Below, piece by piece: positions 61,361-64,000 of a stretch of 64,000 bases of DNA. This DNA is from [Bacteroides] pectinophilus (lineage in GTDB: Bacteria > Bacillota > Clostridia > Lachnospirales > Lachnospiraceae). Under the pieces are notes generated by a model. The model was not told where the DNA came from. It saw only the letters and a program-made list of their open reading frames with translations, and did not search any database. A program made the translations under genes and the position numbers. The stretch covers positions 1,255,001-1,319,000 of the forward strand of contig CP102260.1 of assembly GCA_025146925.1 (NCBI GenBank). The letters are read 5' to 3'. The number at the start of each line of letters is the position of its first letter. The first letter of the stretch is position 1.

Positions 61361-61414
61361 TAGTGCTTATGTACTAATAATCAATTGATTATAAGTGCAT
61401 AGGCACTATTTTTT
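61361..61414 (+). terminator. Strong terminator of pdp
   Basis: A stem of about 24 bp (61361-61384 with 61385-61408, a few G-U or mismatched positions) centred on CAATTG, starting TAGTGC and ending GCACTA, followed by six T. The remaining gap to 61573 holds the leader of the pectate lyase with an AGTGCA/TGCGCT hairpin near 61490; no gene. Confidence 0.85.
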
Positions 61415-61573: not shown

Positions 61574-64000
61574 ATGGAAATTCGCAAATCAAAAAAGCTG
61601 ATGGCCTATCTGCTTGCATTTTTAATGGTAGCATCAGCAATGAGTCCGTTATTTGTAAAAGAGACGTTTGCAGCCTCTGCTAAGACGTTATCAATTACAG
61701 AAGCGGCGGGGTGGTTGGAAACTGCATATGCAGAATGGACTCCTGTGGATGGGGCCGCAGGTTACATGGCATATGTAAAAAAGGCATCAGAATCAGATGC
61801 GGCATTTGTTCAGCTCGACAGTGAGCTTATAAGACAGTATGCAGGTTACTGGCGTGCAGATGCACCGGGACTTGCAGCAGGAAGCTATGTCATGAACATT
61901 GTTGCGGTGATGAAGGATGGTTCCAGGATAAGCTGCAAGACAGGAACACTCGATGTCAAAGCACATGACAGAAGTGGTTTTGCATTCTCATCAAAGTCTC
62001 AGTATGGTACCGGCTCAGGTGCATACAATGATGACGGAACACTTAAGAGCAATGCACAGGTCGTATATGTCACAGCTGATACAGCCAAGACATGTAAGGC
62101 TGTTGTTGGGGGTAAAGAGATTACAGGATTCCAGTCAATTCTTGATGCAAAGCAGAAGGATACAACGGGAACACCTATAGATTTTCGTATTATCGGACGT
62201 GTGTCACTTAATGATCTTGATCATATATCAAGTTCGTCAGAAGGTATCCAGATTAAGGGAAAGAGTGCTTACGCACAGATGAACATTACTGTTGAAGGTA
62301 TTGGAGAAGATGCAGCAGTTCATGGATTTGGATTCCTTGTACGTAATGCCGGTAATGTTGAATTCAGAAATTTTGCACTTATGGCATTTATGGATGATGG
62401 TATCTCACTTGATACTAAGAACTGTAATATCTGGGTTCATAACATGGACATTTTCTATGGCTCAACAGGCGGAGATGCTGACCAGGCAAAAGGTGATGGA
62501 TCTGTAGATGTCAAGGGTGCATCAACAAATGTTACAATTTCTTATGTACATTTCTGGGATTCAGGCAAATGCTCACTCTGCGGAATGAGCGACAGTGCAG
62601 AATTCCTTGTAACATATCATCATAACTGGTTTGACCATTCTGATTCACGTCATGCAAGAATCAGAGTTGCATCAGTACATCTTTATAATAATTATTATGA
62701 CGGCAATGCCAAGTATGGTGTTGGTACAACAAAGGGAAGTTCAGCTTTTGTGGAAGCTAACTACTTCAGAAACTGCAAGAATCCTATGATGAGTTCACTT
62801 CAGGGTTCAGATGCACGCGCTGACAAAGGTACATTCTCAGGTGAGAATGGCGGAATGATTAAAGCATACGGCAATGTTGTAGAGGGTGCATCAAACCTTG
62901 TATATGCTAACTCAGATGCAGGAACCATGTCTGCTGATTCAAAGAGCTTTGACGCATATCTTGCATCATCAAGAGATGAGCAGGTTCCTTCTTCATATAC
63001 AACAGTAGCAGGAGGCACAAAGTATAACAATTTTGATACATCTTCATCATATGACATTGGTGTTAAGGCATCAGCTGTAGATAAAGCAGAAGATGTACCG
63101 GCAGTTGTTACTAAGTATGCGGGAAGAATGAATGGCGGAGACTTTAAATGGACATTCAGTGCAAGCGATGATACTAATTACAGCGTTGACACAGCACTTA
63201 AGTCAGCAGTTGTAAGTTACAAGTCATCAGTACGTGCAATTGGCGGATACAATGGCAAGGCAGAGATTCCTGCAGAGACAACAACGCAGGCACCAACAGT
63301 GAAGCCAACGGAGAAGGCAACAGAAAAGGCAACAGAGAAGGCAACACAGGCACCAACAGTGAAGCCTACTGAGAAGGCAACAGAGAAGGCAACTGAAAAG
63401 GAGACACAGGCACCGACAGTAAAGCCTACAGAAAAAGAAACACAGTCTTTGGCACCATCAGTAACAGAGACAAAAATACATAACTTTACAAAGAATGGTA
63501 AGACAAGTTCTTACTTCAAAATTACCGGAAATCTTTCAAAAAGCAAGGGAAAGGTAACGTATAACGGCCTCAAGCTTACAAAGTGCCTTAAGATTGAATC
63601 TTCAACAAAGATTACATTTAAGACTGATTCAGATTCAAAGCTTACGCTCGTGTTCAATGCATCAAACAGTTCTGCTATTAAGGTTGATGGCAGGGAGTAT
63701 GCGCTTGATAATGGCATTTTAAATATAGAAATAAAAGCAGGAGAGCATTCAATTACAAAAGCAGACCCGGCAAATCTTTTCTATATAGAGGTGTCGTCAA
63801 AGAAATCTTCTTCAGAAGAGACTACAACAGAGCAGGCATCTGAGAGTACTACACAGGCACCGACAGAAAAGCCTTCAGATAGCAGACCGGAGACACCGGT
63901 TGAGAGCGATATCTATGTTTCTCCATCAGGTAAGGCATCTGCAGCAGGAAGCAAGAATGACCCAATGGATTTTGTTACGGCTATAAATAAAATCTCAGCA
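61574..64000 (+). CDS. Secreted multidomain pectate lyase (PL1, CBM77-like, second lyase), 3' end cut off
   Basis: At least 809 residues, open to the right edge. Signal peptide at 1-34 (hydrophobic run, cut near TFA-AS). Then an FN3-like segment (about 48-115), and a PL1 pectate lyase (about 130-560) with DDGISLDTKNCNIWVHNMD, GDGSVDVKGASTNVTISYVH and the catalytic region WFDHSDSRHARIR. A Thr/Glu/Lys/Pro repeat linker follows (565-630), then a beta-sandwich (633-740) resembling pectin-binding CBM77 (GKVTYNGLKLTKCLKIESST, DPANLFYIEV), another linker, and from about 779 IYVSPSGKASAAGSKNDPMD, which looks like the start of a PL9 domain. The plan recalls Ruminococcus PL1/PL9 pectinases. AAGGAAGG precedes the start. 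Confidence 0.88.
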   Translation, partial: MEIRKSKKLMAYLLAFLMVASAMSPLFVKETFAASAKTLSITEAAGWLETAYAEWTPVDGAAGYMAYVKKASESDAAFVQLDSELIRQYAGYWRADAPGLAAGSYVMNIVAVMKDGSRISCKTGTLDVKAHDRSGFAFSSKSQYGTGSGAYNDDGTLKSNAQVVYVTADTAKTCKAVVGGKEITGFQSILDAKQKDTTGTPIDFRIIGRVSLNDLDHISSSSEGIQIKGKSAYAQMNITVEGIGEDAAVHGFGFLVRNAGNVEFRNFALMAFMDDGISLDTKNCNIWVHNMDIFYGSTGGDADQAKGDGSVDVKGASTNVTISYVHFWDSGKCSLCGMSDSAEFLVTYHHNWFDHSDSRHARIRVASVHLYNNYYDGNAKYGVGTTKGSSAFVEANYFRNCKNPMMSSLQGSDARADKGTFSGENGGMIKAYGNVVEGASNLVYANSDAGTMSADSKSFDAYLASSRDEQVPSSYTTVAGGTKYNNFDTSSSYDIGVKASAVDKAEDVPAVVTKYAGRMNGGDFKWTFSASDDTNYSVDTALKSAVVSYKSSVRAIGGYNGKAEIPAETTTQAPTVKPTEKATEKATEKATQAPTVKPTEKATEKATEKETQAPTVKPTEKETQSLAPSVTETKIHNFTKNGKTSSYFKITGNLSKSKGKVTYNGLKLTKCLKIESSTKITFKTDSDSKLTLVFNASNSSAIKVDGREYALDNGILNIEIKAGEHSITKADPANLFYIEVSSKKSSSEETTTEQASESTTQAPTEKPSDSRPETPVESDIYVSPSGKASAAGSKNDPMDFVTAINKISA
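63285..63450 (+). repeat. Tandem linker repeats in the pectate lyase gene
   Basis: Three to four imperfect copies of a unit of about 54-60 bases coding for TQAPTVKPTEKATEKATEK-like peptide. It forms a flexible, probably extended spacer between catalytic and binding domains. Such repeats vary in number between strains by slippage. Confidence 0.8.

Follow-up and report, generated by a model that had tools for sequence, protein, structure and literature searches.

The solved CBM77 structure (PDB 5FU5) presumably derives from the product of orf00696 of Ruminococcus flavefaciens FD-1. The architecture of this protein (ORF00696) is given as SIGN-UNK-PL1-UNK-PL9-UNK(CBM)-Doc in Table 3 of PMC2930009 and is printed as PL1-PL9-X215-Doc in PMC4081043; X215 presumably corresponds to CBM77. 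A Ruminococcus pectate lyase with the layout PL1-PL9-dockerin_I appears in a metaproteome table (PMC7480376), and homopolygalacturonan of low esterification is named as the target of Ruminococcus PL1 and PL9 with CBM77 in a passage of PMC11003169. CBM77Rf is described in PMC9668655 as binding homogalacturonan. Lachnospira eligens is described in a passage of PMC12163728 as a primary pectin degrader, with constitutive expression of its major PL9. Among the open-licence papers listed, none was seen to deal with a free PL1-CBM77-PL9 protein, although one may exist, and none was found on Monoglobus with CBM77 or on multimodular PL1 and PL9.

Here we describe a protein (P0001) that, as far as the printed schemes go, resembles orf00696 in carrying, on a single polypeptide, a signal peptide, an N-terminal module labelled as unknown, PL1, PL9 and a binding module. 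In orf00696, the binding module is C-terminal to PL9 and the chain closes with a dockerin, whereas in P0001, CBM77 is located between the two lyases and the chain stops after PL9. The module order of P0001 thus differs from the one printed for the Ruminococcus enzyme, with the cellulosomal PL1/9 enzymes of this genus having been named as a parallel in an earlier note on this DNA.

Gene model, domain architecture and conserved residues

The window, that is, the whole stretch of DNA that was analysed, is 64,000 nucleotides long and corresponds to G000:C1:1255001-1319000 in a genome that consists of a single contig of 3,078,488 bases (addition of 56000 to a coordinate of locus L006 gives the window position). 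The large multidomain chain that the earlier note had reported as cut by the window is encoded in a reading frame that is open from 61463 and from 61574 through the window end (64000) and is completed outside; counted from 61574, it spans G000:C1:1316574-1320182 (1202 codons). Translation from the upstream ATG (61463) yields 1239 residues, that from 61574 yields 1202, and the ORF ends at L006:9182; the residue numbers of P0001 given here count from 61463, those of the earlier note from 61574 (so that its 633-740 correspond to 670-777). The start at 61574 appears the likelier one because the sequence AGGAAGG ends 11 bases 5' of it and a signal-peptide-like stretch follows directly 3'. The N-terminal hydropathy maximum of P0001 is 1.98, and the signal peptide is probably cleaved near FA/ASA.

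Table 1. Features of the P0001 gene and its upstream flank, in window coordinates
Feature	Position	Strand	Remarks
Terminator-like hairpin with T tail	61394..61407	+	L006 5394-5407; between the pyrimidine-nucleoside-phosphorylase-type gene and P0001; consensus match only
Start codon and signal peptide	61574..61681	+	P0001 residues 38-73; putative cleavage site
N-terminal beta-sandwich	61682..62020	+	Residues 74-186; predicted model, without a Pfam match of its own
PL1 pectate lyase domain	62066..63265	+	Residues 202-601
First linker, Thr/Pro/Lys/Glu-rich repeats	63266..63469	+	60-base unit
CBM77	63473..63787	+	Residues 671-775 by Pfam
Second linker, Ser/Thr/Pro/Glu-rich	63806..63895	+	Residues 782-811; from translation
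PL9 start	63896..64000	+	Residues 812-846, the first 35 residues of the domain

The earlier note had read PL1, a repeat linker, a CBM77-like module, a second linker and the start of PL9 in one chain, and this is confirmed; the order in P0001 is signal peptide, beta-sandwich, PL1, repeat linker, CBM77, second linker and, at the chain end, PL9 (Table 1). In the window part of the ORF, Pfam recognizes Pectate_lyase_4 (E 9.4e-23, 81.4 bits versus a cut-off of 24) and CBM77 (E 2.6e-37, 127.9 bits versus a cut-off of 25), the latter in the segment that the note numbered 633-740; NCBIfam gave no match for this part. Past position 64000, the sequence continues with the PL9 domain, which runs to G000:C1:1320179 and is detected as Pel9A-like_beta_helix (E 8.5e-11, 41.8 bits versus a cut-off of 25.2), and the stop codon ends at 1320182, with neither a dockerin nor a hydrophobic tail in this continuation. 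In the full protein, the matches to Pectate_lyase_4, CBM77 and Pel9A-like_beta_helix span residues 272-435, 671-775 and 964-1103, respectively, all above the curated cut-offs. The solved relatives of the PL1 domain are pectate lyases (e.g. 3VMV, E 1.5e-22), phmmer aligns the solved CBM77 5FU5 (named CBM77-RFPL) with residues 670-779 (E 1e-29), and the 430-residue C-terminal piece (its residues 8-300) matches the solved Pel9A structure 1RU4 with E 1.3e-34. All these E-values are far beyond chance. Within the first linker, positions 63283-63429 form a tandem repeat of 2.5 copies with a period of 60 (score 224).

In a 21-row alignment of P0001 with its homologs (one row, L036, is cut by a contig end), the PL1 residues Asp312, Asp345, Asp349, Lys369, Arg396 and Arg401 are identical in all 21 rows, and the PL9 residues Asp986, Asp1010, Asp1011, Asp1014 and Lys1055 are identical in all 20 rows that have letters at these positions, the 21st being gapped. 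The roles of the Ca-site aspartates and the catalytic arginine of PL1 are assumed to be those of PelC and BsPel, with the positions assigned by alignment. In PL9, the four aspartates presumably correspond to the Ca ligands Asp209, Asp233, Asp234 and Asp237 of Pel9A and Lys1055 to its base, Lys273; Lys1055 aligns with position 248 of the 1RU4 chain, an offset of 25 from Lys273, and the four aspartates fit the same offset. Pectin lyases are not known to have the PL1 metal site, and the invariance of Asp312, Asp345, Asp349 and Arg396 indicates that this site is retained here. Lys695, Lys710 and Lys766 of CBM77 align with Lys32, Lys47 and Lys102 of the 5FU5 chain, the three lysines that we take to bind pectin, and lysine occupies these positions in 54, 64 and 63, respectively, of 64 CBM77 sequences (5FU5, P0001 and 62 from the loci, with the paralogs P0002 and P0003 outside the set).

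The PL1 motif is vRxPxxR, and its proline is replaced in P0001 by Ala398, a substitution found in five of the 21 rows including P0001 itself, with proline in the remaining 16; we count this against the reading as a pectate lyase. That one of the lyase domains is inactive and acts as a second binding module is highly improbable, given that PL1 and PL9 both have the residues expected for catalysis and metal binding, conserved in the homologs, and nothing specific speaks for such a loss.

The PL9 domain might alternatively be a lyase of the rhamnogalacturonan-I backbone, in which case the enzyme would attack two pectin regions instead of homogalacturonan twice; indeed, the PL9 family includes a solved rhamnogalacturonan lyase, 5OLQ, that matches the P0001 domain with E 7.8e-14. 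However, 1RU4 scores higher (123.1 versus 54.7 bits) over a larger share of the domain, and Pel9A is, we assume, a polygalacturonate lyase. Homogalacturonan as the target stated for CBM77Rf (PMC9668655) points in the same direction, so that a rhamnogalacturonan lyase at this position appears unlikely.

The N-terminal beta-sandwich

The AlphaFold model of residues 70-186, built from 51 sequences, has a mean pLDDT of 89.7, with the last ~17 residues modelled poorly. The second-look structural alignment of this predicted model yielded Z 10.5 both for ROS1 (rmsd 1.9 over 89) and for the chitinase ChiW (rmsd 2.5 over 94), with many Fn3 domains in the lower rows of the list; the Foldseek ranking is headed by a mixture of weak matches to immunoglobulin-like and CopC-like chains (best E 3e-4). 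For the module row of P0001, Pfam reported no family, Fn3 included, and the weak Pfam matches among the 51 module rows are scattered over six families (in 3, 1, 1, 1, 1 and 1 rows, with none in P0001); a sequence search of solved structures with the module gave no useful match. Judging by the predicted fold, the module is probably Fn3-like. In the 51-row alignment of the module (61682-62020), nine columns are invariant, including E, D, R, R, D and G.

The module is found at most 120 residues before 86 of the 89 PL1 matches in L008-L087 (the best 80 of 579 stretches), a frequency that is biased upwards by the ranking of the loci according to their similarity to a query containing the module. 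The records with the module before PL1 are named as Bacillota, Bacteroidota groups and Treponema.

Attachment, paralogs and genomic context

Pfam searches of the full protein detected neither Dockerin_1 (at E 0.1) nor choline-binding repeats in P0001, and a sortase-type or membrane tail was rejected given that the maximum 19-residue hydropathy over the last 90 residues is 0.20. The genome encodes four sortase-domain matches. A dockerin search of the whole single-contig genome returned 0 matches; the same model matched 62 and 43 times in the Ruminococcus control genomes (G065 and G066, respectively), 13 times in G064, once each in the Lachnospira genomes G061 and G062, and not at all in G063. 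The search for cohesin (PF00963) also returned 0 matches in the genome; for this model, the control set matched in one genome, and the Ruminococcus controls apply to dockerin only. Since P0001 has no dockerin and the genome matches neither the dockerin nor the cohesin model, a cellulosomal setting was rejected. The view of the earlier note, a free secreted enzyme in an organism without a visible dockerin, is supported by the signal peptide and by the negative searches for an anchor and for dockerin and cohesin across the genome.

CBM77 is present in three copies in this genome, namely, P0001 and the paralogs P0002 and P0003. Both paralogs share the N-terminal module, PL1 and CBM77 with P0001 but have no PL9 and carry instead 11 and 10 choline-binding-type repeat stretches, respectively. 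The two genes are adjacent (G000:C1:1524342-1531053; L007:7342-14053), and the 288-residue repeat tails of their products are 98.3% identical (96.9% at the DNA level), whereas the parts before CBM77 are only 34.7% identical; the near identity of the tails next to such divergent parts suggests a recent tail exchange between the neighbours. Two more proteins with PL9 (1525 and 872 residues) have a hydrophobic stretch and a KKK-type tail at the C-terminus.

Among the five PL1/PL9 chains found by protein query, P0001 is the only one without recognisable attachment; the other four look cell-attached by their sequence features, and a free P0001 would be the odd one out, which we count against that reading. 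Such seemingly habitual surface retention, through choline-binding-type repeats in P0002 and P0003 and hydrophobic tails in two PL9 paralogs, would fit the possibility that P0001 is held on the cell as well, by its N-terminal module or by an unrecognised mode of wall binding. However, P0001 has no hydrophobic tail, dockerin or choline-binding repeats, and the N-terminal module is also present in homologs that are already anchored otherwise and is therefore unlikely to be the anchor; on balance, we regard cell attachment of P0001 as rather unlikely.

Thus, P0001 is very probably a free, secreted, Ca-dependent, multimodular degrader of pectate with two lyases. After cleavage of the signal peptide and release into the medium, the N-terminal beta-sandwich might cap or space PL1, and the basic residues of CBM77 would grip poorly esterified homogalacturonan. 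PL1 and PL9, flanking CBM77 on flexible linkers, would both cleave homogalacturonan by a Ca-dependent beta-elimination, with arginine as the base in PL1 and lysine in PL9, possibly in cooperation between the domains, and the unsaturated oligogalacturonides thus released would be available for uptake. The sequential attack of the two lyases on homogalacturonan suggested in the earlier note is hypothetical. Two Pectinesterase and two Glyco_hydro_88 matches in the same genome likely represent the steps before and after P0001, respectively.

A pectin gene cluster around P0001 was rejected: five ORFs upstream and five downstream were scanned, with 0 pectinases among them. These ORFs comprise pyrroline-5-carboxylate reductase, NUDIX, DAHP synthase, M24 peptidase, pyrimidine nucleoside phosphorylase, an RpiB-type isomerase, one ORF without a family, two of the IMP-cyclohydrolase/AICARFT type and a phosphodiester glycosidase. 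All are of housekeeping type or unnamed, so that the gene context is of no help for function. The immediately adjoining genes are of the pyrimidine nucleoside phosphorylase type upstream and of the RpiB type downstream, the latter on the opposite strand. In addition to the upstream hairpin (Table 1), there is a strong terminator-like hairpin downstream of P0001, scored on the - strand; the region contains 5 terminator-like sites versus 2.8 +/- 1.8 in shuffles. The promoter scan of the region found 13 sites versus 11.0 +/- 3.4 in shuffles, and no promoter is claimed; the upstream region differs from that of the relative G001 by one base in 421 and is uninformative on regulation.

Homologs with alternative tails

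In the scan of named genomes, 579 stretches were confirmed, of which the best 80 were taken (L008-L087); these contain 93 ORFs in which at least one of the four domains was identified, 86 of them with PL1. PL1 and PL9 are joined in 22 ORFs from these best 80 of 579 stretches, 19 of which also contain CBM77; with orf00696 and these 22 ORFs, the layout is already known, and P0001 is an ordinary further member. Nineteen of the 22 joined ORFs are complete, with L015, L028 and L036 cut by contig ends. Among the 19 complete ORFs (again in the best 80 of 579 stretches), six end shortly after PL9 (L017, L019, L025, L035, L037 and L081), six carry a hydrophobic tail at the C-terminus (L008, L009, L014, L020, L023 and L027), two have a dockerin (L012 and L013), one has choline-binding-type repeats (L011, from inspection of the sequence and the Pfam count), and four have another extension (L010, L030, L032 and L059). 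Of the joined ORFs, 20 were searched with Pfam together with P0001 (L020 and L027 were omitted for length); the matches among these 21 proteins were Dockerin_1 in two, the choline-binding repeat in one, CBM77 in 18 and Pel9A-like_beta_helix in 11, with the other PL9 domains identified by phmmer; no dockerin was found in the long chains L020 and L027. The earlier note had implied that the dockerin-free form is an exception, which is not supported: 17 of the 19 complete homologs in the best 80 of 579 stretches are without a dockerin, and this form is common among the relatives examined.

The two proteins with a C-terminal Dockerin_1, from a Clostridiales MAG (L012) and a Ruminococcus MAG (L013), are similar to P0001 in core and order and differ in the dockerin, which P0001 does not have and which scores just at the threshold (23.2 and 22.9 bits, respectively, versus a cut-off of 22.9). 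The proteins of Lachnospira pectinoschiza and L. multipara (L008 and L009; 54% identity each) have the same order as P0001, N-terminal module-PL1-CBM77-PL9, but unlike P0001, go on past PL9 with an extended linker followed by a hydrophobic tail that ends in KKK, which suggests attachment to the cell. Within the genus of the genome analysed here, G001 encodes a tail-less form with 99% identity to P0001, and G002 a 1700-residue form that we equate with L023, whose 1700-residue ORF has a hydrophobic tail; hence the tail differs within the genus. CBM77 was found in nine of 200 sampled genomes of the family, including the one analysed here.

The order is PL1-PL9-CBM77 in L059, and the Ruminococcus loci L061 and L064 encode PL1-CBM77-PL1-dockerin. 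Two CBM77 modules are located between PL1 and PL9 in L017, L019 and L025, and the PL1-CBM77-PL9 chains of L020 and L027, of 2501 and 2906 residues, include 6 and 9 InlB-B-type repeat stretches, respectively. In L024 (5968-12864), three consecutive genes encode PL1-CBM77, PL1-CBM77 and PL9 only, so that the components of the joined enzyme are here split over adjacent genes, and the PL9-only protein groups with the joined PL1-PL9 enzymes on the tree.

The PL9 tree comprises 32 rows, 23 joined and nine PL9-only proteins (L036, the duplicates L001-L005, L088, L090 and L104-L106, and PL9 matches of at most 250 residues were left out). On this tree, the PL1+PL9 label requires four changes, at least three of them forced by well-supported branches, compared to 8.0 in shuffles. 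The joined chains thus appear clustered, and a single origin, with at least three forced changes, is not supported by the 32-row tree; this reading is limited by long branches and by the choice of the loci with a PL1-PL9 query, which under-samples PL9-only proteins.

The tails seen on the core are none, a membrane tail, choline-binding repeats and a dockerin. We tentatively consider the possibility, still a doubtful one, that the beta-sandwich, PL1, CBM77 and PL9 form a portable pectin-degrading cassette whose tail is exchanged over short evolutionary distances, even within a genus, and that the beta-sandwich is a dedicated partner of PL1, perhaps one that binds pectin. The leads most worth following appear to be the variation in tails behind a constant core and the unnamed beta-sandwich with which this core begins. 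The homologs amount to natural variants with one core and different tails, which would permit a comparison of free and bound forms. By breaking down pectin, gut Lachnospiraceae can provide nutrients to other bacteria, and whether a main lyase is free or cell-bound should set how far its products are shared.
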